In this document: piece after piece, positions 2,042-30,710 of the stretch
Layout: every line of letters starts with the position of its first letter
How positions within the stretch are numbered: position 1 is the first letter of the stretch
NCBI GenBank assembly: GCA_947372235.1
Contig: CANBSW010000034.1
Coordinates: 1-34,100 of the forward strand
Source: Chitinophagaceae bacterium
GTDB taxonomy: Bacteria; Bacteroidota; Bacteroidia; Chitinophagales; Chitinophagaceae
DNA: 34,100 nt
Direction: 5' to 3'
Position numbers and translations under genes: made by a program
Notes under the pieces: model-generated
The model's database searches: none
Told to the model about the DNA's origin: nothing
What the model saw: only the letters and a program-made list of their open reading frames with translations

Positions 2042-2055
2042 ATGATTAAAGTCAT
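2042..2055. promoter_or_regulatory. Candidate Crp/Fnr-type palindrome ATGATTAAAGTCAT
   Basis: Inverted ATGA-N6-TCAT about 90 bp upstream of the redox operon; same consensus as sites at 24138 and 27201. Confidence 0.55.
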
Positions 2056-2063: not shown

Positions 2064-2077
2064 ATGACTTCTCTCAT
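2064..2077. promoter_or_regulatory. Second, weaker tandem palindrome ATGACTTCTCTCAT
   Basis: ATGA-N6-TCAT exactly 22 bp downstream of the first site. Confidence 0.35.
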
Positions 2078-2108
2078 TGAATAACCATTTTTTGTAAATG
2101 AATATTTG
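2077..2108 (+). promoter_or_regulatory. Possible Bacteroidota promoter (TTG - N21 - AATATTTG)
   Basis: TTG at 2077-2079 and AATATTTG at 2101-2108, one mismatch to the TAnnTTTG -7 element. Confidence 0.3.
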
Positions 2109-2143: not shown

Positions 2144-3433
2144 ATGAAAACTTCTTTCATCGCTTCTTTACTGGTTTGTTGCGCCGTACTATCCATGTAT
2201 TGTACAAAAAACGCACAGGTTGTAACTGCAACTTCAACCAATACAAACGAATTATTGAGTTATAAAACATCTACCGCGCCAACGATTGATGGTTCTGTTG
2301 ATGGTATTTGGGATAATGCCCAAAAGCTGTTTGCCACTCCTACCGTACCCGATCCGGGTAATGGTTTGTTTGCAGGCTACCAGGGTTCTACCTATCCTGC
2401 AACCGTAAGATCAATGTATGACGATAAATACATTTATTTCCTGGTTGAATGGAACGATCCTTCAAACAATCCTGTTCAGCCATGGTATTTTAATCCTACT
2501 ACCAAACTTTGGGCTCAACGTGGTAATGCAAAAACTTTTGATGTAAACGGAAACCTGATTAAAGAAGGTATGGGACAAGACCAATTGGCTATGTTATGGA
2601 ACATTGATAACTCAACACCAAAATTTGTTACCCAAACCTGTTATGCCAGCTGTCACCTGTTTACCCCATATAAAAACTATGCCGGTCAAATGGTTGCCAA
2701 TGCAAGTGCGAATCACTACACTAACGGTGCCAATGAAAAAATTGACATGTGGTGGTGCCACCTGAATAAGGATCTTGTTACCAATCAAATGGATGACCAG
2801 TATCAAGACTGGGCCGGTGGTCCTTCTGTAACAGATACAGTGGGTGGAAGCGGAAATGGCCGTCATGCCGATGACCTGATTCCTCCATCTCCATTCACTA
2901 CTTCTTATATTAATACCAATACCAACTTAAGCAATGGAGCTTTCAATAACTCTCAAAGTTTGAAATTAGATGGAACCGGTGCAGCAGTAAACGTACCTAA
3001 ATGGGTAGTTCCGGGTGCAACAGGCCAATTATACTATCTGGCTACTGATACATTACCTGGTGGTAAAGCACAAAAAGTTACTGCAGTAAGCAGCACAGGT
3101 GTATTAACTTATGCAACCGGAACTATTGATCCAAACGGAGATGCCGGTTATTTAGACAATACAGGAACTGCTCCTTCTGTTGGCGCAAAATGTTTCCCTT
3201 CTTTCATGGCAGCTCCGTTAACAGCAGGTCGCAGTGATTTTTCTGCTACCGGTAAATACACTGGAACTGGCTGGGTACTGGAATTCAGACGTTTATTAAA
3301 AACCCCTGATGTTCTGAAACAGGATATTGATTTCAGCAGTTTAACTGATCAGCCTTTTGGTATGGCCATCTTTAACAGCTCTAACTATCAACATGGTATT
3401 CAACCCAACTTGCTTTTGAAATTTCAGAAATAA
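2144..3433 (+). CDS. Ethylbenzene-dehydrogenase-related (EB_dh-type) heme-binding lipoprotein
   Basis: Lipoprotein-like N-terminus (CAVLSMYCTKN); TAPTIDGSVDGIWDNA, YDDKYIYFLVEWNDP, QDQLAMLWNI, CYASCH (CX3CH) and ADMWW-like (IDMWWCHLNK) segments typical of EB_dh-domain proteins. Confidence 0.75.
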   Translation: MKTSFIASLLVCCAVLSMYCTKNAQVVTATSTNTNELLSYKTSTAPTIDGSVDGIWDNAQKLFATPTVPDPGNGLFAGYQGSTYPATVRSMYDDKYIYFLVEWNDPSNNPVQPWYFNPTTKLWAQRGNAKTFDVNGNLIKEGMGQDQLAMLWNIDNSTPKFVTQTCYASCHLFTPYKNYAGQMVANASANHYTNGANEKIDMWWCHLNKDLVTNQMDDQYQDWAGGPSVTDTVGGSGNGRHADDLIPPSPFTTSYINTNTNLSNGAFNNSQSLKLDGTGAAVNVPKWVVPGATGQLYYLATDTLPGGKAQKVTAVSSTGVLTYATGTIDPNGDAGYLDNTGTAPSVGAKCFPSFMAAPLTAGRSDFSATGKYTGTGWVLEFRRLLKTPDVLKQDIDFSSLTDQPFGMAIFNSSNYQHGIQPNLLLKFQK

Positions 3434-3467
3434 GTAACCCACTGTTTTTACTATAAAACAATAGATC

Positions 3468-3866
3468 ATGTTAACGAAAAAAACAGCAATACTATCCGGT
3501 GGGGTTGCGTTACTGCTGCTCATTTTCACAGGTTGTTATAAAACTACCACGCTCGTAGTAAATCCGGGCAGCAGTATTACAACTGAAATGAGTTATGCAA
3601 AAGATATCACTCCCATTTTTGATAAAAGTTGCGCATTAAGTGGTTGTCATGCTTCCGGAGCAAAAAGCCCGGACCTGACATCTGCCAATTCATACAAAGC
3701 ATTGAACGGTGGAAGCTATATAAAAGCAGGGGATCCCGATAACAGCGTACTGATTCAGTGGCTAACAGGTAAAAAAAGTCCTGTAATGCCATTAGGTGCA
3801 GGCCCGAATCAGGATATCAATGCAAAAGTGTACGCCTGGATTAAACAAGGTGCAAAAAACAATTAA
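3468..3866 (+). CDS. c-type cytochrome-like lipoprotein with CX4CH motif
   Basis: Lipobox-like LLIFTGC; ITPIFDKSCALSGCHASG...SVLIQWLTGKKSPVMPLGAGP; resembles planctomycete/Bacteroidota CX4CH cytochromes. Confidence 0.75.
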   Translation: MLTKKTAILSGGVALLLLIFTGCYKTTTLVVNPGSSITTEMSYAKDITPIFDKSCALSGCHASGAKSPDLTSANSYKALNGGSYIKAGDPDNSVLIQWLTGKKSPVMPLGAGPNQDINAKVYAWIKQGAKNN

Positions 3867-3876
3867 ATCAACTACC

Positions 3877-4803
3877 ATGAAAAAATATCTCATTCGTTTC
3901 TCATCCGTCCATGCAAGAATGCTGTTGCTTCTGATAGTTGCCGCATCCATTGGAGGAACCGAGCTGATGGCACAGGATTCTGCTGCCACAACTCCGGTAG
4001 TTAAAAAGAAATCTTATGTTAAAAATACATTCGAAGGTAATTTCCTGATCGATGAACAAACCGTGATGGTACCCATCAAAGGAACTTTTGAATTCGATAT
4101 CAATCACCGTTTTGGTACAACCGACCATAGTTTCAAAGACCTGTTTGGTTTGTTTGCCAGTGCCAATATGCGTTTAGGTTTTAGCTATACCCCATTAAAA
4201 GACCTACAGGTTGGTTTTGGAGCCAATAACTTCAATATGCAGGTTGATTTCAGTGCGAAATATGCTTTGCTGAAACAAACCAAAGACAATAAAATGCCGA
4301 TATCTGTTACTTATTATGGTAATGCAGCCATGGATACCAGAGAAAGAAATGCTTCTCTGAATATTGTAACCACTTCTGATCGTTTCTCTTTCTATAACCA
4401 GATCATCGTTGCCAGAAAATTCTCAGAAAAATTTTCTTTACAGGCTTCATTCAGCGATACACATTTTAATAATGTAGACGGATATTATGATGGCAATAAT
4501 ATCATCCAGCCTAAAATGCAAAGTGATAACCTTACTTTCTCAGTAGGTGGCCGTTATAAAATATCTCCTAAAACATCTATCATCGTAAACTATGATCAGC
4601 CATTGACTCAAAACCCGATGGACAATCCACACCCGAACCTGAGTTTAGGTCTGGATATGAAATCAAGTGGTCACGATTTTCAGGTGTTCTTTGGTAACTA
4701 TGGTTACACAATACCTCAGAACAACTCTGTGCTGAATCAGAATGATTTTACCAAGGGCCAGTATGTGATCGGATTCAATATTTCAAGACTCTGGAATTTC
4801 TAA
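3877..4803 (+). CDS. DUF5777-like outer-membrane beta-barrel protein
   Basis: Start moved from 3796 to ATG 3877 (MKKYLIRFSSVHARMLLLLIVAASIGGTELMAQ signal peptide, after the upstream stop). Alternating beta strands; GTFEFDINHRFGTTDHSFKDLFGLFASANMRLGFSYTP. Confidence 0.75.
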   Translation: MKKYLIRFSSVHARMLLLLIVAASIGGTELMAQDSAATTPVVKKKSYVKNTFEGNFLIDEQTVMVPIKGTFEFDINHRFGTTDHSFKDLFGLFASANMRLGFSYTPLKDLQVGFGANNFNMQVDFSAKYALLKQTKDNKMPISVTYYGNAAMDTRERNASLNIVTTSDRFSFYNQIIVARKFSEKFSLQASFSDTHFNNVDGYYDGNNIIQPKMQSDNLTFSVGGRYKISPKTSIIVNYDQPLTQNPMDNPHPNLSLGLDMKSSGHDFQVFFGNYGYTIPQNNSVLNQNDFTKGQYVIGFNISRLWNF

Positions 4804-4866
4804 TCGTAACCAACAAATACCTATTATTTTTTGTAACTTTTTCTCCTAAACAAAATCAATTTAACA

Positions 4867-5262
4867 ATGAAAAATTTATCGATCCTTTCTGTTCTCGCAG
4901 TATTCGTGATTGCTGCAGGTTTCACATTCCAGCCTAAACCATGGCCGGTTCCTGACAAAGATGCCAAAACCGCCAACCCGCAAAAAAATGATGCAGGCTC
5001 TGTCTCTGCAGGAAAAGCCTTGTGGGGTCAGCACTGTGCATCTTGTCATGGTAAATCAGGATTGGGTGATGGCAGCAAAGCAGCCCAGTTAAAAACACAA
5101 CCCGATGATCTGACCAAAGCAGCTTTCCAGTCACAATCAGACGGATCTATCTTCTTCAAAATTTCTGCAGGAAGAGAAGACATGCCTTCTTTCAAAAAGA
5201 AATTACCTGAAACAGAAGATATCTGGAACCTGGTTAACTACATGCGTACTTTAAAAAAATAA
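4867..5262 (+). CDS. Class I c-type cytochrome (CX2CH), exported
   Basis: Signal peptide; GKALWGQHCASCHGKSGLGDGSKA...GREDMPSFKKKLPETEDIWNLVNYMRTL. Confidence 0.9.
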   Translation: MKNLSILSVLAVFVIAAGFTFQPKPWPVPDKDAKTANPQKNDAGSVSAGKALWGQHCASCHGKSGLGDGSKAAQLKTQPDDLTKAAFQSQSDGSIFFKISAGREDMPSFKKKLPETEDIWNLVNYMRTLKK

Positions 5263-5297
5263 TTACAAAATAATCCCCCTATAAAGACCTCATTTGT

Positions 5298-5318
5298 GAA
5301 GCAGGGTAATCCTGCTTC
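5298..5318 (+). other. Intercistronic hairpin GAAGCAGG-gtaat-CCTGCTTC
   Basis: Stem extends by a G:U pair (TGTGAAGCAGG/CCTGCTTCGCA); no downstream poly-T, so not a classical terminator. Confidence 0.6.
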
Positions 5319-5369
5319 GCAGATGATCTTTAATTGTTTCTCTTTCTACCACCTATTCAACATACCATC

Positions 5370-5636
5370 ATGAAAGAAACAGCTCCAGTTTCGCAGGAAA
5401 CAAAAACCAGAAGAACCGTATTGCTGGGCGTGGGCCTTTTATCACTGTTTTCTTTTTTTAAGCTTGGCTTCTTATCAAAGAAAAAAAACATCATTGCCTG
5501 TGCTCCCCCTGAAGATGTGAAAACCATGAAGTTTTTAACACAGGATGGACAACTGGTTGAAGTAGATGTATCCAAAGTAAAATCCTTACAGGAAAAAGCT
5601 TCCAATAAAGAAATGCAGGATTGGATTAAAAGGTAA
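5370..5636 (+). CDS. Small twin-Arg membrane-anchored/exported protein
   Basis: ATG at 5370; KTRRTVLLGVGLLSLFSFF then MKFLTQDGQLVEVDVSKVK, similar to the N-terminal region of the next gene product. Confidence 0.65.
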   Translation: MKETAPVSQETKTRRTVLLGVGLLSLFSFFKLGFLSKKKNIIACAPPEDVKTMKFLTQDGQLVEVDVSKVKSLQEKASNKEMQDWIKR

Positions 5637-5656
5637 TCAACAAATAAAAAGATTCC

Positions 5657-6592
5657 ATGAAAACGAATGATAGTTCAAGGAGAGAATTTATTGCTGCCGG
5701 CTTATTGGCAGGATTGACCGTAGCCGGCTGTACAAGCAGCAGCGAGTCTAATCCTTTCGATTCTCTGGCCGATAATCAGGTAAAACCCTCCGGCGAAATG
5801 GTAAAACTTCTTGGTGTAAACGGAGAAGTGATAGAGGTTGACAAAGCTTTTCTAAAACCAGTACCCGACCTTCCGCCCATCTCTAACGAAATGGCCAGAA
5901 GAGGTATTGCCGGTAAAAAATTTGTAATGGTGATCGATCTTTCCCGTTGCAAAAGCGTGAAAGCCTGTCAAACAGCCTGTAACCATGCCCACCAGATTCA
6001 TGGCGGACAAAACTGGATCAAAGTATATCCTTTACAGGAAGCAGAACACACTGCCCCATACTGGCAACCCACCACCTGTATGCATTGCGATGAACCGCCT
6101 TGTGTTAAGGTTTGTCCGGTGGACGCCACATTCAAAAGACAGGATGGAATTGTGTTGATCGATAGTGACCGTTGTATCGGTTGCCGTTTTTGTATGGCTG
6201 CCTGCCCTTACTCAACCCGTGTATTTAACTGGGAAGAAATAGACCTGCCAAAAGAAGTTGCCGAAAAACCATATTCCTGCGAAACCAGTGTTCCGCAGAA
6301 AAAAGGAACCGTGGGTAAATGCGATTTCTGTCCGGATATGGCACGTAAAGGCGAATTACCACACTGTGTATCAGCCTGTCCGAACGGTGTATTCATGTTT
6401 GGTGATATGCTGGAGGATACCGTTACCAATGGTGCTGAAACCTTCCGTTTCAGCGATCTGGTGAAAGACAAAGCCGGCTACCGCCTGATGGAAGACCTGG
6501 GAACCAAACCAAGTGTGTATTATCTGCCACCGGTAAACAGGAATTTCCCTTTCGAGAATAAAGAACCACAAACAGAGACTAAAAAAAGTTAA
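5657..6592 (+). CDS. Tat-exported 4Fe-4S dicluster (DmsB/PsrB/NrfC-type) lipoprotein
   Basis: SRREFIAAGLLAGLTVAGC (Tat plus lipobox); CKSVKACQTAC, CMHCDEPPCVKVCP, CIGCRFCMAACP, CDFCPDMARKGELPHCVSACP. Confidence 0.9.
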   Translation: MKTNDSSRREFIAAGLLAGLTVAGCTSSSESNPFDSLADNQVKPSGEMVKLLGVNGEVIEVDKAFLKPVPDLPPISNEMARRGIAGKKFVMVIDLSRCKSVKACQTACNHAHQIHGGQNWIKVYPLQEAEHTAPYWQPTTCMHCDEPPCVKVCPVDATFKRQDGIVLIDSDRCIGCRFCMAACPYSTRVFNWEEIDLPKEVAEKPYSCETSVPQKKGTVGKCDFCPDMARKGELPHCVSACPNGVFMFGDMLEDTVTNGAETFRFSDLVKDKAGYRLMEDLGTKPSVYYLPPVNRNFPFENKEPQTETKKS

Positions 6593-6608
6593 CCCTAAAT
6601 CATAGATC

Positions 6609-7922
6609 GTGGAAAGTATAGCTAAACAAAAGATAATCGAAGATCTGTTACCACAAAAATTTGGCAAAGCAGGAAAGATCTGGGTAGGTGCTTTATTGGT
6701 TGTATGTGCAATTGGTTTTTTTGCCTATTGCCGGCAATTATCGAAAGGCCTCGTAGTTACTTCCATGAGAGATTATGCTTCGTGGGGTATTTATATTTCC
6801 AATTTTGTATTCTTTGTGGCCATCAGTCTGGTAGGATCATTGATAACCGCAGTTTTGCGTTTAAGTGATGTGCATTGGAGCACACCCTTAACGCGTATTG
6901 CAGAGATCATCGCCGTTTCTGCCATCACATTTGCCTCAATCATTATTATTGTGGACATGGGTCGCCCGGACAGGTTTTATAATCTGTTCATACATGGCCG
7001 TTTACAATCACCCATTGTTTGGGATGTAATCGTGATCACCACTTATTTCTTTGTAAGCTTATTGCTTCTTTATTTTCCTATGTTGCCAGATCTGGCAATT
7101 TTGATGAAATTCAAAGAAAAAACAGGGGCAGGTCTTAATAAAATGTACTCTTTCCTGGGCTCATTCTGGAAAAACACACCTGAGCAGATTCATATCAGCG
7201 AAAAAGCGATCAACCTTTTATCCATCACAATCATACCGGTTGCTTTTGCAATCCATACAGTAACATCATGGCTGTTTGCAACTACTTATCGCCCGGGCTG
7301 GGATAGTACCAATTTTGGTGCTTACTTCATATCAGGTGCTTTTCTGGTAGGTGCCGGTGGTGTGGTGGTTGCCATGTTTGTATTCCGCAAAGCCTATCAT
7401 TTGGAAAAATACATTACCGATTCTCATTTTGATAAAATGGGAAAAGTATTGGTACTGCTTGCCTTATTGTATCTCTATTTTAATGTGAACGAATTTCTGG
7501 TTCCCGCATTTAAAATGAAGAAACCTGAAGAAGAGCATTTACTCGGTTTGTTCACCGGAGAATTTGCACCTGTATTCTGGTTTGCCATTACTACGGCCAT
7601 GATCATTCCGATATTGATCTTATTATTTAAAAAAGGAAGAAAACCATTACCCGCATTTGTAGCAGGTTGTTTGGTGGTGATCGGATCATGGTTCAAACGT
7701 TACCTGATCGTTACCCCAACCTTACTGCATCCATTCTTGCCCATGCAGGATGTGCCGGCTTCGTACAGACATTATTTTCCATCATGGGAAGAGTGGGCAA
7801 TCGCTATCGGATCATTAGCCGGAGCATTATTGATCATTACCATTTTTGCAAGAATATTTCCGATCATCCCAATACAGGAAACCATTACTGAAACTGAACA
7901 ACATGAACATGAAAAAGCATAG
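6609..7922 (+). CDS. NrfD/PsrC-family quinone-interacting membrane anchor
   Basis: GTG start at 6609; multiple TM helices; RDYASWGIYISNFVFFVAIS, FASIIIIVDMGRPDRFYNLFIHGRLQSPIVWDVIVITTYF typical of NrfD/PsrC. Confidence 0.9.
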   Translation: MESIAKQKIIEDLLPQKFGKAGKIWVGALLVVCAIGFFAYCRQLSKGLVVTSMRDYASWGIYISNFVFFVAISLVGSLITAVLRLSDVHWSTPLTRIAEIIAVSAITFASIIIIVDMGRPDRFYNLFIHGRLQSPIVWDVIVITTYFFVSLLLLYFPMLPDLAILMKFKEKTGAGLNKMYSFLGSFWKNTPEQIHISEKAINLLSITIIPVAFAIHTVTSWLFATTYRPGWDSTNFGAYFISGAFLVGAGGVVVAMFVFRKAYHLEKYITDSHFDKMGKVLVLLALLYLYFNVNEFLVPAFKMKKPEEEHLLGLFTGEFAPVFWFAITTAMIIPILILLFKKGRKPLPAFVAGCLVVIGSWFKRYLIVTPTLLHPFLPMQDVPASYRHYFPSWEEWAIAIGSLAGALLIITIFARIFPIIPIQETITETEQHEHEKA

Positions 7923-8772
7923 CCGCCTGTTATTTTCGGCCCTCCTGTTACAATTGATAGGAATTGCCGCTTTTGCTCAAACTGCAAAAAATGATCTATC
8001 GTTAAGCGTTAGCTATTTCAACAATAACAATCAGTTGCATTACCTGGTAGCGCATGCCAAATCGAAGATCGATGGGAAATTTCAGATGATCCCAAACATC
8101 AATGTAAGTTTTTACATTGGCTCAGAAACACCTGCCAATCTTTTAGGAAAAGGTGTTACCAATAATAAAGGCGAATGTCTTGTATTGATACCACCTGCAG
8201 CAAAGCAAGAGTGGAACAAATCTGCCAAACCCGGCTTCATTGTTGTATCACAGACTACCAAACAATTTGATGAATCAAAAGGAACACTCGATGTTACCAA
8301 AGCAAAAATTCAAATTGATACAGCCGCTGACAGAAAAGTTACCGCCGTTTTACTGGAATTAAAAGATACTGTTTGGACACCCGTTAAAGGCGTGGATGTT
8401 AAGATCGCTGTAAAAAGACTGGGTGGCGATTTCAATATTGCCGAAACACCCACTTATGCAACCGATTCATTGGGTATGGTAAGTGCAGAGTATAAAAGAG
8501 ACAGTCTGCCCGGCGATGCAAAAGGCAATCTGATAATTGTTGCTAAAGTAGAGGACAATGATCTGTATGGAAATCTTTCATCAGAAAAAATGGTTCCCTG
8601 GGGTAAGTATTATCCTTACAAATCGGAGTTCGATAAAAGAACTTTGTTCGCAAGAAGAGGTAAGTCTCCAATCTGGTTAGAACTGATGGCATATTCAATC
8701 GTAGCAGCAGTTTGGGCAGTACTGTTTTTCCTTTTCGGACAAATCAGAAAATTAAAGCGTTTAGGTATATAG
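7903..8772 (+). CDS. Exported hypothetical protein with beta-rich domain and C-terminal TM helix
   Basis: Start ATG 7903 (or 7909), overlapping the end of the NrfD gene; signal peptide MNMKKHSRLLFSALLLQLIGIAAFAQ; C-terminal WLELMAYSIVAAVWAVLFFLFGQIRKLKR. Confidence 0.7.
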   Translation: MNMKKHSRLLFSALLLQLIGIAAFAQTAKNDLSLSVSYFNNNNQLHYLVAHAKSKIDGKFQMIPNINVSFYIGSETPANLLGKGVTNNKGECLVLIPPAAKQEWNKSAKPGFIVVSQTTKQFDESKGTLDVTKAKIQIDTAADRKVTAVLLELKDTVWTPVKGVDVKIAVKRLGGDFNIAETPTYATDSLGMVSAEYKRDSLPGDAKGNLIIVAKVEDNDLYGNLSSEKMVPWGKYYPYKSEFDKRTLFARRGKSPIWLELMAYSIVAAVWAVLFFLFGQIRKLKRLGI

Positions 8773-8799
8773 GTATAGGTATGTTGGTTTTACCTACGG

Positions 8800-8828
8800 G
8801 GCGCTGATTCTTCAGCGCCTTTCTTTTT
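8800..8828 (+). terminator. Rho-independent terminator of the redox operon
   Basis: GGCGCTGA-TTCT-TCAGCGCC followed by TTTCTTTTT. Confidence 0.9.
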
Positions 8829-11139: not shown

Positions 11140-11262
11140 ATTAACAATCCTATTAGATTTCGAATAAGAGATTATTTTTTATCTCTAAAATAGCTGTTAA
11201 TTGTTTTTGTAAGTATCTTTTACTTACCTGTGCATCTCAAAATAATGACGATAATTAGCTAT

Positions 11263-12702
11263 ATGAAAAAAATCCTTCTTTTTTTATATGTACTATCATT
11301 TTCTGTTCAAGCTCAAAAAACGATTCAGAAAACGAAGAACATACTGGTTTTATATAGCGATGACCAGAGTTATAACACCTTACGCATATTGGGTAACAAA
11401 GAGATCTATACACCTAATTTAGATAAACTGGCACAACAGGGTGTTACGTTTACCCAGGCGCATGTAATGGGTGGACATCAGGGGGCGGTTTGCATACCCA
11501 GTCGTGTAATGATGTTAACCGGCCGTTATGTAAACCGTTTACCCGGAGATGGCGGAATATTACCAGACAGTATCATTAGTTTACCTGAGATATTACAACA
11601 GAAAGGATATACAACGTTTCACACCGGCAAATGGCACAGTGATAAAGCCTCATATAACCGTTTGTTTAAAACCGGTGATAATATTTTCTTTGGAGGTATG
11701 CATTTTCCGGGTGATGGCGGACAGGATCATCCTTCTGTATATCATTATGACAGTACGGGAGAATATCCAAAATCAAAAAACTGGCATAGTGATACTTTTA
11801 GTTCTGAGTTGTATGCAGATGCTGCCATTACCTTTTTAAACAGTAAAAAAGCAAAAACAAATCCATTCTATTGTTATGTAGCATTCACATCACCACATGA
11901 TCCGCGAACGCCTCCAAAAAAATATGTGGACATGTATCCTCCGGAAAAGATCAGTCTTCCACCAAATTTTTTAACACAACATCCCTTTGACAATGGCGAT
12001 CTGAATGTACGTGATGAAAACCTCATTGCACATCCCCGTACCGAAGCCGATGTAAAAAGAGAGATCGCATTATATTATGGAATGATCAGTGAAATGGATG
12101 CACAGGTGGGCCGAATACTCGAAACATTGGACAAAGCAGGATTGAGAGAAAACACCATTATTGTTTTTGCAGGAGACAATGGTCTTGCAGTTGGGCAGCA
12201 TGGATTGGTGGGCAAACAAAGTTTGTATGAACACAGCATTCGTGTACCATTGATCATTTCTGGCCCGGGGTTGAGGAGGAATGTTAGATCTGATGCGTTT
12301 GCTTATCTCAGTGATATCTCTCCAACCTTATATGATTACCTGAACGTAGCACCGCCAAAAACGATAGAAGCAAAAAGTTTGTTACCCGTATTATATGATC
12401 CATCTAAAACGATTCGCAGTTCTATCTATAATGTTTATGGACACTGGAGCAGAAGTATCAAAACAAAAGATGGTTTTAAACTGATCGTGTATAACGTAAG
12501 AGGTAAACTCACTTCACAGCTATTCAATCTGAAGAAAGATCCATGGGAAATGCATGACCTGGCAGAACATAAAGAATTCGCAGGAAAAATAGAAGAGTTG
12601 CGACGCTTACTTAAAAAAGAAATGACAGCGGCTTATGACGACCTAAACATAGACTTGCCCGACTGGGGAAGAAAACCCAACCAAAAAAGTTATGGCAGTT
12701 GA
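11263..12702 (+). CDS. Sulfatase (formylglycine type)
   Basis: ATG 11263 gives signal peptide MKKILLFLYVLSFSVQAQ; VLYSDDQSYNTLRILGN, VCIPSRVMMLTGRY (CxPSR), GKWHSD, GDNGLAVGQHGLVGKQSLYEHSIRVPLI. Confidence 0.88.
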   Translation: MKKILLFLYVLSFSVQAQKTIQKTKNILVLYSDDQSYNTLRILGNKEIYTPNLDKLAQQGVTFTQAHVMGGHQGAVCIPSRVMMLTGRYVNRLPGDGGILPDSIISLPEILQQKGYTTFHTGKWHSDKASYNRLFKTGDNIFFGGMHFPGDGGQDHPSVYHYDSTGEYPKSKNWHSDTFSSELYADAAITFLNSKKAKTNPFYCYVAFTSPHDPRTPPKKYVDMYPPEKISLPPNFLTQHPFDNGDLNVRDENLIAHPRTEADVKREIALYYGMISEMDAQVGRILETLDKAGLRENTIIVFAGDNGLAVGQHGLVGKQSLYEHSIRVPLIISGPGLRRNVRSDAFAYLSDISPTLYDYLNVAPPKTIEAKSLLPVLYDPSKTIRSSIYNVYGHWSRSIKTKDGFKLIVYNVRGKLTSQLFNLKKDPWEMHDLAEHKEFAGKIEELRRLLKKEMTAAYDDLNIDLPDWGRKPNQKSYGS

Positions 12703-12727
12703 ATGATTTCATTAAATATATATCCGC

Positions 12728-14263
12728 ATGAAAACTATAATTTCATTTTTATCGATCACTTTTTTATTTCTGTTTGCAGCAACTTCAATTGCACAAAATA
12801 AAAGGCCAAATATTTTGGTGATTTTTTCTGATGATCACGCCCAGCAAACCATCAGCGCCTATGGCAGTAAGATGATGCAGACGCCAAACATTGACCGTAT
12901 TGCCAGAGAAGGAGCCATTCTGCAAAACACTTTTGTTACCAATTCAATTTGTGCGCCAAGCCGAGCAGTGTTACTAACCGGAAAATATAGTCATATCAAT
13001 GGTTTAAAAGACAATAGCCCCAAACGATTATTCGATGGCAGTCAGCAACAGGTTCAAAAACTATTACACGATCAGCAATACCAAACTGCCTGGATTGGAA
13101 AATGGCATTTACAAACACTGCCGCAGGGTTTTGATTACTGGACAGTACTTCCCGATCAGGGCTATTATTACCAGCCAGATTTTATCAATATGAAAAATGA
13201 TACCATCCGGCACAAAGGTTATGTAACTGATCTGATCAGTGATTTTTCGATGAACTGGTTAAATAATAGGGATACTGCAAAACCGTTTTTTATGGTTGTT
13301 GGCGAAAAAGCCACACACAGAACATGGATGCCCGATCTGCAGGATTTGGGTGCCTATGATGCCATTGATTTTCCTGAGCCGGCCAATTTTCATGATAAAT
13401 ATGAAGGCAGAAAAGCCGCATTGGAACAGGATATGATGGTCCGCAAAACACTGGTGATGGATTATGATCTGAAAGTAAATGCAAATTATAACGATAAGAA
13501 TCTCTTCGGCAGATTTACACCAGAACAAAAAAACATTTTTAAAAAATATTATGACAAAATTTCTCTGGAATATGAGAAGATCAAAAACGACAGCAGCCAA
13601 TTAGAGAAATGGAAATTTGAAAGATATATCAAAGATTACCTGGCCACAGCAAAATCGCTCGACAGAAATATTGGCCGCATACTGCATTATTTAGATTCAA
13701 CGGGCCTTGCAAAAAATACGGTGGTGATCTATACTTCCGATCAGGGTTTTTATATGGGTGAGCATGGCTGGTTTGATAAACGTTTTATGTATGAAGAAAG
13801 TTTACGCACCCCTTTTGTAATAAAATATCCCGGAAAAATAAAACCACATACCTCCATAAATAATATGGTGGTAAATATTGATTTTGCACCAACCCTTCTT
13901 GAGATCGCAGGGGCAAAAATACCGGAAGATATACAGGGTAAAAGTTTTCTTAAACTGGTAACTCAATCCAAACAACCCCTAGCATGGCGTGATGCAATGT
14001 ATTATCATTATTATGAGTATCCCGAACCACATCATGTTGCACCACATTTCGGAATCAGAACACAACAATACAAACTCATCCGTTTTTACGGCCCACACGA
14101 TAGCTGGGAATTATTTGATCTTGTGAAAGATAAAATGGAGATGCATAATATATACGGTAAAGCGGGTTATGCTGAAATCATTAAAAAATTAAAAACACAA
14201 TTGAAGGAGCTGATTAGTACATATAAAGATGAAGAGGCTGCGGCGGTCTTAAAAAAAGAATAG
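12728..14263 (+). CDS. Sulfatase (formylglycine type)
   Basis: Signal peptide; ILVIFSDDHAQQTISAYG, CAPSRAVLLTGKY, IGKWHLQ, SDQGFYMGEHGWFDKRFMYEESLRTPFVIKYPG. Confidence 0.92.
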   Translation: MKTIISFLSITFLFLFAATSIAQNKRPNILVIFSDDHAQQTISAYGSKMMQTPNIDRIAREGAILQNTFVTNSICAPSRAVLLTGKYSHINGLKDNSPKRLFDGSQQQVQKLLHDQQYQTAWIGKWHLQTLPQGFDYWTVLPDQGYYYQPDFINMKNDTIRHKGYVTDLISDFSMNWLNNRDTAKPFFMVVGEKATHRTWMPDLQDLGAYDAIDFPEPANFHDKYEGRKAALEQDMMVRKTLVMDYDLKVNANYNDKNLFGRFTPEQKNIFKKYYDKISLEYEKIKNDSSQLEKWKFERYIKDYLATAKSLDRNIGRILHYLDSTGLAKNTVVIYTSDQGFYMGEHGWFDKRFMYEESLRTPFVIKYPGKIKPHTSINNMVVNIDFAPTLLEIAGAKIPEDIQGKSFLKLVTQSKQPLAWRDAMYYHYYEYPEPHHVAPHFGIRTQQYKLIRFYGPHDSWELFDLVKDKMEMHNIYGKAGYAEIIKKLKTQLKELISTYKDEEAAAVLKKE

Positions 14264-14351
14264 TGTATTATTAAACCAAATTATGTGTCGCAAAACTAGT
14301 CATCAATTATGAACACAAACAGTGCCTCTGATATAATCAATGATAGCTCAT

Positions 14352-16499
14352 ATGAAAAAAAATCTTTTCCTTATCTTATATTCTTTAGCAACCGTTTGTT
14401 ATTCTCAAAAAACAGATTGGCTGGTACAACCCATTACCCAAAAAGCAACCATAACAAAATCCGCTGACGGTAAAGACCTTGAACTTAACAACGGATTATT
14501 AAAAAGAGTGTTTCGCCTGCAACCTAATATTGCCTGTACAGATTTTACAAACCTCAGTAACGGCCAACAGTTATTACGTGCTATAAAACCAGAAGCTATC
14601 CTTATAATAAACGGAATACAATATGCAGTGGGTGGCTTACACGGCCAATCAGAAAAAGCATATTTGCGTAAAGACTGGATAGATCAACTCACCACACAGG
14701 ATAGTGATTTTCATTTTACCAATTATGAAATGAAAGAGTTGAAACCTTTTCTAAACAGAAAATCCACTTACTGGGCTATGAATAAAAAAGCGGCAACGGG
14801 TAAGGCTATCAATTTTCAATATCATTCCATAATACCTGCATTACAAAATATATTGGTAACCGTACATTATGAATTGTATGATGGCATTCCGTTAATTGTA
14901 AAATGGCTTTCCGTTGAAAACAAATCAAATCATACAATCATACTCAACAAAGCCATCAATGAAGTATTGGCTTTTGTAGAAGAAGAAAGCGCTGTTGTAG
15001 GCACACCGGAGCAAATGAAAAAACAACATGGCATTTATGTAGAAACCAATTATGCTTTCAACAATGCCATGCGTTATGATATCAGTGACCAGACAACACA
15101 CTGGACAACTGATCGCTCTTACACTTCGCAGGTAAATTATAATTACCAAACACCTTGTGTGCTGGAAGTATATCCTGAAAAAATGAAAGGTGTTACTATT
15201 GAGCCGGGGAATGTTTTTAATTCTGTTCGCACGCATGAATTATTGATGGACAGTTATGACCGTGAAAGAAGAGGATTGGCTATCCGAAAAATGTACAGTA
15301 CTGTTGCACCGTGGACAACCGAGAACCCCATCTTTATGCACCTTGTAAGCAAAAATGATGAGGAAGTAAAACGCGCAATCGATCAATGTTCCGCAACGGG
15401 TTATGAAGCTCTGATCTTAAGTTTCGGAAGCCATTGTAATATGGAAGATTCTTCTGCATCAAATATTGCAAAATGGAAAAGCTTAGCTGCATATGCGCAT
15501 CAAAAAAATATTACTATTGGAGGATATTCTCTTTTCAGTTCGAGAAAGATCAGTGATGCGGATGATGTGATCGATCCTGTTACCGGCAAACCCGATGCAG
15601 CCGCTTTTTTTGGAAATGCTCCCTGTTTAGGAAGTAAATGGGGACTGGCATATCTCGACAAATTAAAATACTTCATCAAGCAAACCGGTTTTGATCTGTT
15701 TGAAAATGATGGGCCTTATCCGGGCGATGTTTGTGCATCAACCACACATCCCGGCCACGCCGGATTAGATGATTCGCAATGGAAGCAGATGGAATTGCAG
15801 AAAGGATTTTATCACTGGTGTAATGAGAACGGAATTTATGTAAATGCACCCGATTGGTATTTCCTGGATGGCACCAATAAAATTGCGATCGGCTATCGCG
15901 AAGTAAATTTTTCATTATCGCGTGAGCAACAAAAAATACTGAATCGCCAGAATATTTATGATGGTCTTTGGGAAAAAACGCCATCTATGAGTTGGGGCTT
16001 TGTTCCCTTAACACGATATCAGGGTGGCGGTGCCGAAGCAGTGCTGGAACCTTTATCAGAACATTTGAAAGATTATGAACAACTCATGTTTCAATACTAT
16101 GGTTCCGGTGTACAGGCCTGTTATCGCGGACCAAGATTGTATGATAACGAAACCACCAAACAAACCGTAATTAAAAGTATCAATTGGTATAAAAAGTACA
16201 GAACTATTTTAAATTCAGATATCATTCATTTACGTCGGGCAGATGGGAGAGATTGGGATGGCATCCTTCATGTAAATTCACAACTGTCTACAAAAGGATT
16301 TTTGTTATTGTATAATCCACTCAAAGAAAAAATTACCCGAACCATACAAGTGCCTTTATATTATTCAGGATTAACCACAACGGCTTCTATTCAGGAAAAA
16401 GAAGGGGCTGCAAAAAAATACATATTGAACAGAAATTATGAAGTTGAAATAACCGTAACCGTAGAACCGGAATCGTATACATGGTTTACCGTTCAATAA
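14352..16499 (+). CDS. Exported glycoside hydrolase-like protein, possibly clan GH-D / alpha-galactosidase-like
   Basis: Signal peptide from ATG 14352; N-terminal beta-sandwich-like region followed by barrel-like segments (YEALILSFGS, FDLFENDGPYPGDVCASTTHPGHAGLDDSQWKQM). Family assignment tentative. Confidence 0.5.
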   Translation: MKKNLFLILYSLATVCYSQKTDWLVQPITQKATITKSADGKDLELNNGLLKRVFRLQPNIACTDFTNLSNGQQLLRAIKPEAILIINGIQYAVGGLHGQSEKAYLRKDWIDQLTTQDSDFHFTNYEMKELKPFLNRKSTYWAMNKKAATGKAINFQYHSIIPALQNILVTVHYELYDGIPLIVKWLSVENKSNHTIILNKAINEVLAFVEEESAVVGTPEQMKKQHGIYVETNYAFNNAMRYDISDQTTHWTTDRSYTSQVNYNYQTPCVLEVYPEKMKGVTIEPGNVFNSVRTHELLMDSYDRERRGLAIRKMYSTVAPWTTENPIFMHLVSKNDEEVKRAIDQCSATGYEALILSFGSHCNMEDSSASNIAKWKSLAAYAHQKNITIGGYSLFSSRKISDADDVIDPVTGKPDAAAFFGNAPCLGSKWGLAYLDKLKYFIKQTGFDLFENDGPYPGDVCASTTHPGHAGLDDSQWKQMELQKGFYHWCNENGIYVNAPDWYFLDGTNKIAIGYREVNFSLSREQQKILNRQNIYDGLWEKTPSMSWGFVPLTRYQGGGAEAVLEPLSEHLKDYEQLMFQYYGSGVQACYRGPRLYDNETTKQTVIKSINWYKKYRTILNSDIIHLRRADGRDWDGILHVNSQLSTKGFLLLYNPLKEKITRTIQVPLYYSGLTTTASIQEKEGAAKKYILNRNYEVEITVTVEPESYTWFTVQ

Positions 16500-16511
16500 A
16501 TACAGGTTGGG

Positions 16512-16583
16512 TTCAATAAGAGGATAAGAGAAAAAGAGTGTAACAAGTAAATGCACTTTTTCTCTTGTCTTTCTCTTATTGAA
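16512..16583. repeat. Intergenic palindromic repeat family E, copy 1
   Basis: TTCAATAAGAG (16512-16522) / CTCTTATTGAA (16573-16583), plus inner purine/pyrimidine arms GAGAAAAAGAGTG / CACTTTTTCTC. Confidence 0.8.
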
Positions 16584-16612
16584 ATCCTCTGCAGCAATCA
16601 AAAGCTTTGTCC

Positions 16613-18847
16613 ATGAAAAAATACCTTTTTATTTTTTGGGGATTTCTCCTTACCAATTTGTCTGTACTTTCTCAGCCATCCAATACCTGTAACTTTATTT
16701 CCACCACCTTACCCACCCGTTGGGATGAGGCCTTCCCCATGGGAAATGGACGCATTGGATTATTGGTATATGAGAAGAATAACAAACTCCGGTTCTCACT
16801 CGACAGGGCCGATCTGTGGGATGAACGTTCAACCCTGAAACTGGAAAAAAATAATTTTCAATGGGTGATCGGTCAGGTTCAGAAAAAAGAGTACGACACT
16901 GTTCAGCACTGGGGCGATGACCCTTATGAAGCCTTTTCATTTCCAACAAAATTGCCGGCCGCTGCTATTGAATTTTCAACAGAGGCCTTTGGTAAACCGT
17001 TGAAAGCAGCGCTCAATATTAAAACAGGGATCTGCACAATTGAATGGCCAAATGGAATTCGGTTTCAAACCTTTGTTCATACAGAACATGATTATGGAGT
17101 GTTTTCTTTTGAAGGTGTTTCGAAAGATTTTATTCCTGAACTGGATGCTCCCAAATATAGAGCAGTTAAACAATTACAGGGAAATTCTGTTAGCGGGCAG
17201 GGGCTTGAACAACTCGGTTATGAACAGGGAAAGATCACTCATCAAAAAAATGAAATTCAATACCTGCAACAAACAGCGCAGGGGCATAGTTATCTTGTTA
17301 CCATTAGATGGCAATTTGCAAACGGAAGATTAAACGGGTATTGGAGCATAGCAAAAGATCCCGGATCGGCCAATCAGAACAAAACAATTACGGTTGCCGA
17401 TACAGCATTGGTATCGCACCTGAAAAGCTGGGGTTCGTATTGGAAAGCGTCATCCATTCATATCCCTGATACTACCATTGAAAAACAATATTACAGAGAG
17501 CTGTATAAATTAAAATGTGTTGCGGCAAAAAATGCACCAGCTATTACGTTGCAAGCCATTTGGACCGCCGATAACGGTAACCTTCCACCCTGGAAAGGAG
17601 ATTTTCATAATGACCTCAATACACAACTTTCTTACTGGCCTGCTTATACTGCCAACCATTTAAGTGAAGCCGCTACTTTTACCGATTGGCTTTGGCAGAT
17701 CAGTGATGTGAATAAAAAATATACAAAACAATATTTTGGCGTAAACGGATTAAATGTTCCCGGCGTAGCCACACTACATGGCGATGCGATGGGTGGATGG
17801 ATACAATATTCCTTATCACCAACGGTAGCAGCCTGGCTTTCACAACATTTTTACTGGCAATGGAAATATTCGATGGATAAAAATTTTCTCAGCAAACGTG
17901 CCTATCCTTATTTACATGAAGTGGCTTTGTTTCTTGAAAAAATAACCATTCTAAAAAATGGCAAAAGGGTATTGCCGATTAGTGCATCCCCCGAAATTTT
18001 TAATAACAGTTTACAAGCCTGGTTTTTGCAAACCACTAATTATGATCTTTCATTAATACACTATGCATTTACCATTGCTGCAGAAGCAGCCAATACGCTC
18101 AACAAAAAACAGGAAGCGGATCATTGGTTGAAAATGGCAAATCAATTACCGGCTTTGGATACCGATGAAACAGGATTAACCATTGCACCGGGTTTTCCAA
18201 ATCAAAGCTCTCATCGGCATCATTCAAACTTAATGGCTATCTACCCTTTGGGCTTATTGGATATTGATAAACCAAATGATAAACCCATCATTCAAAATTC
18301 ACTTCGCCATATGGAAAAACTGGGCACCCGTCAATGGTGCGGCTATTCTTTTTCATGGGCAGCCTGTTTATATGCAAGGGCTCATGAGGGAGAAAAAGCA
18401 AAAAAGATGCTCTCGATCTTTGCCAACAATTTTTGTTCTGTAAACAGTTTTCATTTGAATGGAGATCAAAAAGGGGGTGAACATTCTAATTTTACTTACC
18501 GTCCTTTTACACTGGAAGGAAACTTTGCATTTGCACAAGGACTGCATGAAATGTTATTACAACAAAAAGAAGGTGTGATAGAAGTTTTTCCCGCCATCCC
18601 TTCAGCATGGAGAACTGCTTCATTTCAAAAATTAAGAACAGAAGGTGCAATACTGGTAACTGCTGTGAGAGAATCGGGAGAAACTAAATCTATCACGCTT
18701 GCTGCTGAAAATACCGGAGTCGTAAAAGTAAAACTTCCGTCCATTACGTTTACGCTATCTGATCCATCAAAAAAATACAGGATAGAAAAAGATATTTTAT
18801 TCATTACCCTGAAAGAACATGAATCTATTTCCATAGAACTTAAATAA
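16613..18847 (+). CDS. GH95-like glycoside hydrolase (fucosidase/galactosidase-type fold)
   Basis: ATG 16613; LPTRWDEAFPMGNGRIGLLVY, DLNTQLSYWPAYTANHLSEAATF, ISASPE, SSHRHHSNLMAIYPLGLLD, YSFSWAACLYARAHEGEKA, FTLEGNFAFAQGLHEMLLQ. Confidence 0.75.
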   Translation: MKKYLFIFWGFLLTNLSVLSQPSNTCNFISTTLPTRWDEAFPMGNGRIGLLVYEKNNKLRFSLDRADLWDERSTLKLEKNNFQWVIGQVQKKEYDTVQHWGDDPYEAFSFPTKLPAAAIEFSTEAFGKPLKAALNIKTGICTIEWPNGIRFQTFVHTEHDYGVFSFEGVSKDFIPELDAPKYRAVKQLQGNSVSGQGLEQLGYEQGKITHQKNEIQYLQQTAQGHSYLVTIRWQFANGRLNGYWSIAKDPGSANQNKTITVADTALVSHLKSWGSYWKASSIHIPDTTIEKQYYRELYKLKCVAAKNAPAITLQAIWTADNGNLPPWKGDFHNDLNTQLSYWPAYTANHLSEAATFTDWLWQISDVNKKYTKQYFGVNGLNVPGVATLHGDAMGGWIQYSLSPTVAAWLSQHFYWQWKYSMDKNFLSKRAYPYLHEVALFLEKITILKNGKRVLPISASPEIFNNSLQAWFLQTTNYDLSLIHYAFTIAAEAANTLNKKQEADHWLKMANQLPALDTDETGLTIAPGFPNQSSHRHHSNLMAIYPLGLLDIDKPNDKPIIQNSLRHMEKLGTRQWCGYSFSWAACLYARAHEGEKAKKMLSIFANNFCSVNSFHLNGDQKGGEHSNFTYRPFTLEGNFAFAQGLHEMLLQQKEGVIEVFPAIPSAWRTASFQKLRTEGAILVTAVRESGETKSITLAAENTGVVKVKLPSITFTLSDPSKKYRIEKDILFITLKEHESISIELK

Positions 18848-18856
18848 ATTGTGTAC

Positions 18857-21205: not shown

Positions 21206-21224
21206 GATTGAATTCATTTGAAAC

Positions 21225-21321
21225 TTTTTTCACCGCAGAGAGGCAGAGAACGGAGAGTTTTCGCAGAGTCGTATTTCTCTGCGTAATCTCTGCGAACTCA
21301 TGTTCTCTGCGGTGAAAAAAA
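21225..21321. repeat. Intergenic palindromic repeat family A, copy 1
   Basis: ttttttcaccgcagagaggcagagaacggagag...ctctgcgaactcatgttctctgcggtgaaaaaaa between convergent genes; about 10 mismatches over 97 bp to the copy at 33064. Confidence 0.9.
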
Positions 21322-21327
21322 CATCCA

Positions 21328-24085: not shown

Positions 24086-24137
24086 AATCACAATTTTACA
24101 GACGGCTGCAATTTATTTGAAGCAACAGAGTTAAACC

Positions 24138-24151
24138 ATGATTTAGGTCAT
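24138..24151. promoter_or_regulatory. Candidate Crp/Fnr-type palindrome ATGATTTAGGTCAT
   Basis: 16-bp inverted CATGA-N6-TCATG upstream of the minus-strand 4Fe-4S gene. Confidence 0.55.
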
Positions 24152-27805: not shown

Positions 27806-28864
27806 TTAATTAATCAGCTGCTCCAGCTTAGGGATATTCAACAGGGTAATACCACCATCTTTTATCTCAATCAGTTTTTCGCTTTTAAAATCGCTTAAGG
27901 TGCGTATCAATGATTCTGTGGCAGCGCCGGCAATGGTAGCAAGGTTTTCGCGGCTGATATCAATAGAAAATTTTTCGTTGTTACCGGTATTGTATTTATG
28001 ATAGATCATCAGCAGCGCATCGGCTACTTTTTTACGGAGAGAGTTGTAGGCAAGGCCTAATAATTGTTTTTCTTTATCTGCAATATTTTTAGCAAGGATC
28101 TGGATGAATTTCTTGCTTACTTCCTTATTGTTATTGATCAGTTGTTCAAATTCTTCCTTGGGAATGATGGCCAGTTCAGTTTCTTCAATAGCTTCGGCAG
28201 ATTCTTTGTGATTGGTGTTTTCGAGCATGGCCAGATAACCCAGAAAATCTCCTTCGGCATAAAGATCAATTACCAGTTCCTTTCCATCATCGTTTGTTTT
28301 AAAGGTCTTTACCTTGCCTCTTAATATATAATATAGGTTGGTAGACCGGTTTCCTTCAGAATAAATGATCTGTTTCTTTTTAAAAGCATTTGTATTGCGT
28401 CCACTGGCCAGCTCTTCGAGGAGCTGTGTTCCGCTGGCTGTTTTGATCAGTTCTTTAAAGCCATCCATCCCCCCTTTAAATTCTTCTTTTAATAAAGCCA
28501 CTTTTTTCAAACGGCCTTCAACGGCTTTCAGTAGTTCAGTGCCATCAAATGGTTTGGTTATATAATCATCGGCACCTAATTCCATCCCTCTTCTAAAATC
28601 TGAGCGCTCTGTTTTAGCGGTTAAAAAAATAAAAGGGGTGTTTTGTGTTGTTGGATTGTTTTGTAGCATGTGTAAAACACCATATCCATCCAATACTGGC
28701 ATCATAATATCACAGATGATCAGATCGGGGTTCTCCTGCAGCGCCGATTCTACTCCCAGTTTGCCATTGGCGGCAGTAAATACCTCGTAATTGGCCAATT
28801 CCAATATTTCGGCGGTATTATCGCGTATGTCGTCATTATCTTCTATCAGCAAAATCTTTTTCAT
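27806..28864 (-). CDS. Response regulator: REC domain fused to Crp/Fnr-type cNMP-like and HTH domains
   Basis: KKILLIEDNDDIRDN...DLIICDIMMPVLDGYG...FLTAKT...YITKPFD; then LYYILRGKVKTFK...GDFLGYLAMLEN...; ENLATIAGAATESLIRTLSDFKSEKLIEI Crp-type HTH. Confidence 0.93.
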   Translation of the reverse strand: MKKILLIEDNDDIRDNTAEILELANYEVFTAANGKLGVESALQENPDLIICDIMMPVLDGYGVLHMLQNNPTTQNTPFIFLTAKTERSDFRRGMELGADDYITKPFDGTELLKAVEGRLKKVALLKEEFKGGMDGFKELIKTASGTQLLEELASGRNTNAFKKKQIIYSEGNRSTNLYYILRGKVKTFKTNDDGKELVIDLYAEGDFLGYLAMLENTNHKESAEAIEETELAIIPKEEFEQLINNNKEVSKKFIQILAKNIADKEKQLLGLAYNSLRKKVADALLMIYHKYNTGNNEKFSIDISRENLATIAGAATESLIRTLSDFKSEKLIEIKDGGITLLNIPKLEQLIN

Positions 28865-28960
28865 GGTGTTGGTTTATCCGGCATTTAAAATAAAATTAAT
28901 GCTTTGTGCTGTAAAAAAGTTTTGTGTGTTGATAAAATCTGGGGGGAGGGCTGATTATGC

Positions 28961-29090: not shown

Positions 29091-30710
29091 TTATTCATTC
29101 ACCAGATCAAACTGTAAAATAAACTCAGTACCCTTTTCCAGTTCACTTTCGCAGGATACTTTTCCGTTCATGAGTTCTGCATATTTCTGAACAATGTGAA
29201 GCCCGAGGCCGGTTCCCTGTATGGCGGTTACATTGGTACCCCGGAAAAAACGTTCAAACAAATGTTGCTGGTCTTCTTTTCCAATACCCAGTCCCTCATC
29301 TTTTACCCTGAATTCCAATCCGTTTGCAGAACTGCTGGTTTGAATCGTAATAGTAGAATTTTCTGGAGAAAATTTAATGGCATTTGATAAAAGGTTCATG
29401 GCAATATGTTTCAGCAGTGACGGATCGAGCCAGATTTTTTCTGCTCCGATATGCTGATATACCATTTGCTGCCCCTTTTTCAATATCGTACTCAATTCGT
29501 TAATGATGCTTTTAATATGATCATTGATATTAAAATTCGTGAATTTTGCCGCGATCTTTCCTTCTTCAATTTTGCCAACACTTAAAAAATCGTTCAATAT
29601 ATCGGTAAGTGTGGTTACGGCAGAAACCACCCGATCAATGTGCTTTTCACGTTTGAGCTGGTCTTCTGTTTTAGTATATTTCTGTAACAGATAAATGGAT
29701 GACAGAATGGTACTCAACGGCGTACGAAACTCATGCGATGCCATTGAAACAAAACGGGATTTCAGTTCATTCAGTTCTTTTTCTTTTTCAAGTGATTTTC
29801 TGAGTTCGGCTTCTACTTCCTCCGTTTCTTCAATCTGTTTTTCCAGTTTGGTAATCGTAAGTGCGAGTTCGTCTGTTCTTTCCACTACTTTCTGCTCCAG
29901 TTCCGCATTTAGCTTTTTAATTTCTTCTTCGGCTTTTTTACGAATAGTAATATCATTGATGAAAGCGATCACAAAGGTCTCATCATCAGCCTTATACATA
30001 CCCAGACTTACTTCTACCGGAAATTCTGTACCATCTTTTTTAATTGCAAACAGGTCCATTCCAATACCCATGGGCCTGTTTTCCTGATTGGCATAATAGC
30101 GTTGCTGGTGGCCATGGTGCCTTTCATGAAAACGGGAAGGAATAAAGGTTTCAATTCGCTTTCCCTTTACTTCAGAAAAATCATATTCAAATAACTGTAT
30201 CGCAAAAGGGTTCATTAAAACGATCTCCTGCTTTTGGTTTACAATGATCACTCCAATTGAAGCGTGGTCAAGTAGGGCACCAAATCGTTTCTTTTCGTTC
30301 TCCAGTCTTTCTTCTGCTTTTTTGGCCCGGTCAATTTCAACAATTTGTACCAGTAAATAATCAGTGCTTTTGGTTTTAAAATGGTTTAACTGCAAATACC
30401 CCCAAAACGATTTGCCATCTTTCTTTACAAATTCTTCTTCTACTGAAAAAAAACCTTTTTCGCCTATTCCTTTGTTCAGTTCATTGAGGGTAAAGGACTG
30501 CTGAGATTTTTTACGAAGAGATGGGGCATGTACGCCAATCATTTCCAGTGGTTTCTCATACCCAAACAAGACGGCACCCATATCGTTTACAAAAACAAAT
30601 TTCCGGTCATCTTCACGCACCACGCCAATAAAATCAAAAGTGCTTTTTGAGATTACGTTTAACAGCGCTTCCTGAAACCCGGGAGCATTATGTAAAAAGG
30701 ACTGAGGCAT
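29091..30710 (-). CDS. PAS-PAS sensor histidine kinase (HisKA + HATPase_c)
   Basis: Two PAS regions; FVSMASHEFRTPLSTILSSIYLL (H-box); HIAMNLLSNAIKFSP (N-box); VKDEGLGIGKEDQQHLFERFFRG, GTGLGLHIVQKYAELMNG (G-boxes). Confidence 0.95.
   Translation of the reverse strand: MPQSFLHNAPGFQEALLNVISKSTFDFIGVVREDDRKFVFVNDMGAVLFGYEKPLEMIGVHAPSLRKKSQQSFTLNELNKGIGEKGFFSVEEEFVKKDGKSFWGYLQLNHFKTKSTDYLLVQIVEIDRAKKAEERLENEKKRFGALLDHASIGVIIVNQKQEIVLMNPFAIQLFEYDFSEVKGKRIETFIPSRFHERHHGHQQRYYANQENRPMGIGMDLFAIKKDGTEFPVEVSLGMYKADDETFVIAFINDITIRKKAEEEIKKLNAELEQKVVERTDELALTITKLEKQIEETEEVEAELRKSLEKEKELNELKSRFVSMASHEFRTPLSTILSSIYLLQKYTKTEDQLKREKHIDRVVSAVTTLTDILNDFLSVGKIEEGKIAAKFTNFNINDHIKSIINELSTILKKGQQMVYQHIGAEKIWLDPSLLKHIAMNLLSNAIKFSPENSTITIQTSSSANGLEFRVKDEGLGIGKEDQQHLFERFFRGTNVTAIQGTGLGLHIVQKYAELMNGKVSCESELEKGTEFILQFDLVNE

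Follow-up and report, generated by a model that had tools for sequence, protein, structure and literature searches.

A putative molybdenum-free quinol:cytochrome c oxidoreductase operon with exchangeable cassettes in Bacteroidota

The 34,100-nucleotide stretch analysed here, hereafter the window (contig CANBSW010000034.1 of assembly GCA_947372235.1, positions 1 to 34,100), comes from a Chitinophagaceae bacterium and carries an eight-gene operon (2144–8772, + strand) that encodes an Fe-S protein, an NrfD-family membrane subunit and several candidate haem proteins. We read this operon, with about even confidence, as an accessory, oxygen-limitation-induced, molybdenum (Mo)-free menaquinol:cytochrome c oxidoreductase. 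The reading is built on its gene content, an architecture of core and cassette, the lack of a Mo subunit, the retention of quinone-site residues, conserved upstream palindromes and co-occurrence with the cbb3 oxidase. In the proposed mechanism, the NrfD protein would oxidise quinol, and the Fe-S clusters of the lipoprotein subunit would relay the electrons to the monoheme cytochrome c, which would hand them on to the high-affinity cbb3 oxidase or to other periplasmic cytochrome acceptors. The cassette of EB_dh, CX4CH and DUF5777 proteins would be an exchangeable partner for the core in redox reactions on the outer-membrane side. The operon and its associated elements are as follows.

2144..3433, + strand: gene 1, EB_dh-domain lipoprotein with an invariant CX3CH (PF09459, 5.7e-20; 29-sequence alignment; fold search)
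3468..3866, + strand: gene 2, small lipoprotein with a CX4CH haem motif (motif conservation; NF047812, 5.1e-6, below cut-off)
3877..4803, + strand: gene 3, DUF5777 outer-membrane beta-barrel (PF19089, 1.4e-72; AlphaFold model)
4867..5262, + strand: gene 4, monoheme cytochrome c, CX2CH, conserved Met (PF13442, 2.4e-12; conservation)
5290..5326, + strand: strong hairpin in the gene 4/gene 5 gap (17 pairs; -25.1 kcal/mol)
5370..5636, + strand: gene 5, small twin-Arg protein, homologue of the gene 6 N-terminus (hhalign)
5657..6592, + strand: gene 6, twin-arginine translocation (Tat)/lipoprotein Fe-S subunit, DsrO/PsrB-like (NCBIfam; PsrB structure match)
6609..7922, + strand: gene 7, NrfD-family membrane subunit, predicted to be quinone-reactive (PF03916, 1.8e-30; ActC match)
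7903..8772, + strand: gene 8, periplasmic Ig-like protein with a C-terminal transmembrane (TM) helix (72 loci; Pfam Big_1 below threshold only)
8798..8821, + strand: terminator-like hairpin (hairpin search)

Open reading frame (ORF) calls at these coordinates bear out the first-pass annotation, made from the sequence alone, of eight ORFs on the + strand with the last pair overlapping (7903–7922), and Pfam agrees with the identities it gave to the EB_dh, barrel, cytochrome c, Fe-S and NrfD proteins, also supporting 4Fe-4S domains in the Fe-S protein. Where it counted three cytochromes, the candidate c-type haem motifs are three, CX3CH, CX4CH and CX2CH in genes 1, 2 and 4; the CX3CH of the EB_dh protein was not in its list. 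The small twin-Arg protein that it described is present; 38 of 56 relatives have a twin Arg near the N-terminus. The strong terminator that it placed near 8800 corresponds to the hairpin at 8798–8821, but the stronger hairpin inside the set (5290–5326) had escaped it. Hairpins in the gene 4/gene 5 gap recur in many relatives, their position being kept while their sequence differs, and terminator, attenuator and processing site are candidate roles for the one found here. With this internal hairpin and its recurrence in relatives, the eight genes may not form one uniformly expressed unit. No Rfam family reached its gathering score in the window, and the 5290 hairpin drew just weak, chance-like matches.

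A fixed core and exchangeable cassettes

A single scan recovered 520 relatives of gene 6, of which the best 80 loci were compared; the assemblies are mostly draft metagenome-assembled genomes, and the structural models used here are single-chain predictions. Conservation of the eight-gene neighbourhood, which the first-pass annotation had named as a check, holds for genes 4–8, but not for the EB_dh, CX4CH and barrel part. In the 80 loci the monoheme cytochrome c, small Tat-like protein, Fe-S, NrfD and Ig-like/TM genes form a fixed core (gene 8 being found in 72), whereas the set of EB_dh protein, CX4CH cytochrome and DUF5777 barrel upstream of it is one of several exchangeable cassettes. One alternative consists of YceI, a CX4CH cytochrome and DUF5777, and another of a two-motif haem lipoprotein, a second cytochrome, DUF5777 and, in some cases, YceI; they sometimes lie on the strand opposite to the core. 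A single gene array may hold one core with all three cassettes around it (L105, 4890–18834) or one core with two different visible DUF5777 cassettes (L106, 4356–14660). The window's own genome has the two other cassettes on a separate contig (C151, locus L099), and DUF5777 cassettes also occur without any core.

One cultured carrier, Niastella vici DJ57 (L035), possesses the full set of eight genes. The core also occurs in four distant Bacteroidota loci from other families (L114–L117); what these share is Fe-S, NrfD, Ig-like/TM and cytochrome c genes together with genes for a small haem lipoprotein and DUF5777. Clear type-A NrfD proteins (>570 bits) are present in 10 of 395 sampled genomes of the phylum, belonging to five families, a sparse but wide distribution. 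For both the Ig-like/TM protein and its small Tat-like companion we propose a structural or an assembly role. In one of the distant loci (L116, 6915–14089) the Fe-S, NrfD, Ig-like and cytochrome genes are duplicated in tandem.

Among the cassette proteins, gene 1 gives fold-search matches to NXR-C, carbohydrate-binding module CBM9 and ethylbenzene dehydrogenase gamma. It has the EB_dh fold (7b04_C, 2ivf_C) in common with the gamma subunits of DMSO-reductase type II enzymes and of nitrite oxidoreductase, but is a lipoprotein and stands without an alpha Mo subunit. Unlike these gamma subunits it carries an invariant CX3CH, which suggests that its haem is c-type rather than b-type; the model is of low confidence around this motif. 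The CX4CH of gene 2 is conserved at 95% or more over 56 relatives, and the AlphaFold model of the DUF5777 protein shows 12 long strands (pLDDT 86). In the open-access literature we found no paper with DUF5777, and none linking EB_dh with Chitinophagaceae or with NrfD in Bacteroidetes. As a tentative idea, about which we have more doubt than confidence, an EB_dh or YceI lipoprotein, a CX4CH or CX3CH haem lipoprotein and a 12-strand DUF5777 barrel might constitute an undescribed, interchangeable outer-membrane redox cassette of Bacteroidota, plugged into a Mo-free quinol dehydrogenase, and with it a new outer-membrane-linked low-oxygen respiration.

A predicted quinone-reactive pair without a molybdopterin subunit

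The best matches of gene 6 are PsrB (2vpw_B, 1.6e-30) and DsrO (NCBIfam, 182 bits against a curated cut-off of 200), and its cluster motif I reads C-x5-C-x3-C, with one usual Cys missing. Gene 7 scores 137 bits with DsrP (curated cut-off 350), and its nearest relative among solved structures is ActC (6f0k_C, 5.6e-56 with the family profile). Its residues D116, S134 and D139 align at ActC His139, Ser164 and Asp169, three of the four quinone-site positions, the fourth (Asp253) being L222; R364 and E295 align at ActC Arg395 and Glu326 (roles of the ActC residues in PMC8076601). An NrfD-like protein with quinone-site residues thus adjoins an Fe-S subunit, and the pair is predicted to be quinone-reactive. 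Gene 5 aligns to the N-terminal segment of gene 6 (hhalign probability 96.4, E 1.2e-9, 67 columns).

In phylogenetic trees the type-A Fe-S proteins form one clade (98/98) and the type-A NrfD proteins cluster, except for two divergent members; the tree gives no resolved order among type A, ActC and the proteins of two complex iron-sulfur molybdoenzyme (CISM) loci, L118 and L119. The divergent members lie in L088 (8031–9371) and L092 (957–2297), where the core NrfD is only 38–40% identical and the Fe-S protein still 61%, which suggests that NrfD has been replaced or is changing fast.

The four-cluster Fe-S subunit and membrane anchor of a CISM are both found here, and its Mo/W bis-pyranopterin guanine dinucleotide catalytic subunit is missing. 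A profile of four Mo or Mo-like proteins, together with the Mo protein of the window's own genome, was searched against the ORFs of the loci and detected a Mo-type subunit in 0 of 80, 34 of which have about 10 kb on both sides; the same profile does pick up the genuine Mo-type or ActB proteins of L118, L119, L103 and L087. PF00384 has no match anywhere in six core-carrying genus-mates, each at least 93% complete. In the window's own genome the sole bis-molybdopterin guanine dinucleotide protein detected is a 1175-aa open frame beside a NarK-type transporter on another contig, likely an assimilatory nitrate reductase. The absence of a Mo subunit noted in the first-pass annotation extends to the homologous loci, and the genome-wide search for an orphan subunit that it called for gave this one protein. 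Its stand-alone route from menaquinol to a periplasmic cytochrome gains support from the Mo-free loci, the genus-mates without PF00384 and the kept quinone-site residues.

NrfD/Fe-S pairs without a Mo subunit are known in principle (PMC6303296, PMC8076601), and the module is a variant of this known redox module. Like QrcCD, NrfCD, MccCD and DsrOP it pairs an Fe-S subunit with an NrfD-like membrane subunit, and those pairs may also operate without a Mo subunit, with other cytochromes as partners (PMC6303296, PMC8076601). Here, however, the partner is a monoheme cytochrome and the Fe-S subunits form a separate clade, and the published list of complexes includes neither an Ig-like/TM protein nor a Tat-like paralogue of the N-terminal part of the Fe-S subunit, nor exchangeable cassettes with DUF5777. 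DsrO and DsrP are the best NCBIfam matches of genes 6 and 7, both below the curated cut-offs, but the locus lacks DsrM, DsrK and the triheme DsrJ of DsrMKJOP; nor does the operon contain a multihaem ORF that could be the pentahaem NrfA of NrfABCD.

Alternative complex III (ACIII, ActABCDEF) does an analogous job, quinol oxidation to a monoheme cytochrome c, and provides the nearest solved relative of gene 7, but ActA (pentahaem), the ActB Mo-like domain, ActD and ActF are all missing from the locus; a true ACIII was seen for comparison in L086. The first-pass statement that no ACIII is visible is correct for the locus but not for the genome, which contains the complex in fragments, with the ActB N-terminus and ActF-CoxB-COX1 at contig ends. 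These pieces rule out that ACIII is missing and the module is the main complex III. An ActC match, in one case partial, is also present in each of the eleven further core carriers of the genus with a completeness of at least 88%. Since ACIII co-exists in the same genomes, the module is regarded as an accessory branch.

Low-oxygen-type boxes and the cbb3 oxidase

The first-pass annotation missed low-oxygen-type boxes upstream of the operon. These elements, and two candidate regulatory genes outside it, are:

2042..2055, no strand: FNR-type palindrome 1, ATGATTAAAGTCAT (conserved in EB_dh upstream regions)
2064..2077, no strand: FNR-type palindrome 2, ATGACTTCTCTCAT, offset from palindrome 1 by 22 bp and with a single mismatch (spacing conserved)
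2101..2108, + strand: possible Bacteroidota -7 promoter element AATATTTG, tentative (TAnnTTTG-like)
27806..28864, - strand: receiver-cNMP-HTH_Crp regulator, a candidate for the boxes, linked but outside the operon (Pfam)
29091..30710, - strand: PAS histidine kinase with a FixL-like haem-PAS, candidate oxygen sensor, outside the operon (FixL 1d06_A, 1.2e-13, haem His aligned)

Classical FNR (TTGATN4ATCAA) and CRP boxes show no excess upstream, a result that led to the ATGAY-N4-RTCAT box. Of 37 regions upstream of EB_dh genes, 25 have an exact copy (mean 0.05 in shuffles) and 34 a copy with no more than one mismatch; the box is found in 0 of 81 gene 6 upstream regions, and the window has 3 sites against a shuffle mean of 0.29. 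Of 33 loci, 27 have a second box placed exactly +22 bp from the first, where shuffles lead one to expect about 1.6, and the TAnnTTTG-like element keeps a roughly constant offset from box 1 across loci (51 or 58–59). In loci without EB_dh, a box with at most one mismatch precedes gene 4 in 24 of 37. The window's own genome holds 48 exact sites against 31 in a reversed control, so many single genomic sites are chance occurrences. Intergenic boxes precede the cbb3-oxidase operon and its Crp/FNR gene, NifJ (pyruvate:ferredoxin oxidoreductase), NuoA, a Crp gene next to nosZ, and a membrane-protein gene with ScdA after it; a further box is located ahead of cassette II, upstream of its YceI gene. The palindrome is in common with low-oxygen genes, as in an FNR/CRP low-oxygen regulon, and is predicted to bind such a regulator. 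One candidate, the Crp/FNR protein of L089, keeps the FNR Glu209 and Arg213 positions; the FixL-like kinase and receiver-Crp pair (27806–30710) lies at a distance of 19 kb from the operon, and seven other loci have its orthologues close to the core. The boxes make the low-oxygen idea directly testable by expression at defined oxygen. An exact FNR-type box (24138–24151) also lies 47 bp upstream of a gene for a 353-aa membrane protein with Cys motifs and no Pfam or NCBIfam match (23030–24091, - strand).

Among genus-mates at least 88% complete, the window's own genome included, ccoN (cbb3) is present in 12 of 12 core carriers and 4 of 13 others, but the p-value of 0.0005 overstates the evidence, the genomes being related, phylogeny uncorrected and the hypothesis formed on the same set after the boxes had been seen. 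For nosZ the figures are 6 of 12 and 4 of 13 (p=0.43), that is, no association, which rules it out as an obligate partner.

Direction and destination of the electrons

If correct, the proposal that the operon encodes an accessory quinol:cytochrome c oxidoreductase would mean that widespread environmental Bacteroidota already having ACIII have added a Mo-free low-oxygen branch, undescribed and exchangeable, and DUF5777 would gain its first functional setting. Besides the overstated cbb3 statistic, three points weigh against it. NrfD-based complexes may also run towards quinone reduction, as in Qrc. ACIII could already feed cbb3, so that a second quinol:cytochrome c enzyme needs a reason. Finally, the small haem lipoprotein and DUF5777 barrel stay with the core even in distant loci, which suggests that they are more than optional.

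The last point also favours an unlikely alternative, in which the core and the CX4CH and EB_dh CX3CH lipoproteins would carry quinol electrons through the outer membrane, by a conduit that includes DUF5777, to an acceptor at the cell surface or outside the cell. Two of the four distant loci add a six-haem-motif lipoprotein, and three lipoprotein/cytochrome/barrel cassettes may flank one core. However, a barrel with the 12 strands of the model would probably leave too little room for a folded cytochrome plug of the MtrAB or Cyc2 kind, there is no multihaem protein in the window, and to our knowledge no extracellular acceptor is known for these bacteria. The same model lends no support to the extension of the route to the outer membrane by the barrel and EB_dh lipoprotein that the first-pass annotation suggested, the barrel being probably too narrow for a haem-protein plug. 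A Cyc2- or Mtr-like porin-cytochrome conduit, which needs a large barrel around the haem protein, was rejected against the 12 modelled strands.

Similarly unlikely is the inward route. In it the barrel would import a substrate, EB_dh or YceI would bind this substrate, the cassette would take electrons from it, and the core would reduce menaquinone in a Qrc-like manner. EB_dh and YceI do hold equivalent places in the cassettes, the quinone position in transmembrane helix 2 is an Asp as in Wolinella PsrC, QrcD and DsrP, and the modelled barrel is similar to channels for small molecules, COG4313 among them, but these fold matches are generic (TM-score about 0.5), the cassettes contain no recognised oxidising enzyme, and a box common to terminal-oxidase genes fits a respiratory outlet better.

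A dedicated electron supply for nitrogen-oxide (NO or N2O) reduction is less probable again: the boxes at the nosZ-associated regulator and before the gene preceding ScdA would suit it, as would a small cytochrome and a haem-copper-oxidase-like gene near the distant core of L114, but nosZ does not co-occur with the core and many small core-carrying genomes lack it. Very improbable, finally, is a CISM complex that is decayed or has its Mo subunit encoded elsewhere: the next-nearest NrfD relatives do lie in operons with 719–818-aa QrcB/ArrA-like Mo-type subunits and multihaem cytochromes (L118, 6377–10866; L119, 8945–13301), but the Fe-S and NrfD proteins are strongly conserved rather than decaying, and a subunit in trans is ruled out by the 80-locus profile search, the six PF00384-free genomes and the own-genome search, which already contradict this reading.

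Elsewhere in the window, positions 11230–22833 carry sulfatase-like genes, a GH95-type glycoside hydrolase and a TonB-type receptor and resemble a polysaccharide-use locus, and positions 1–1100 are low-complexity and repeat-like, with Pro- or Val-rich ORFs on both strands.

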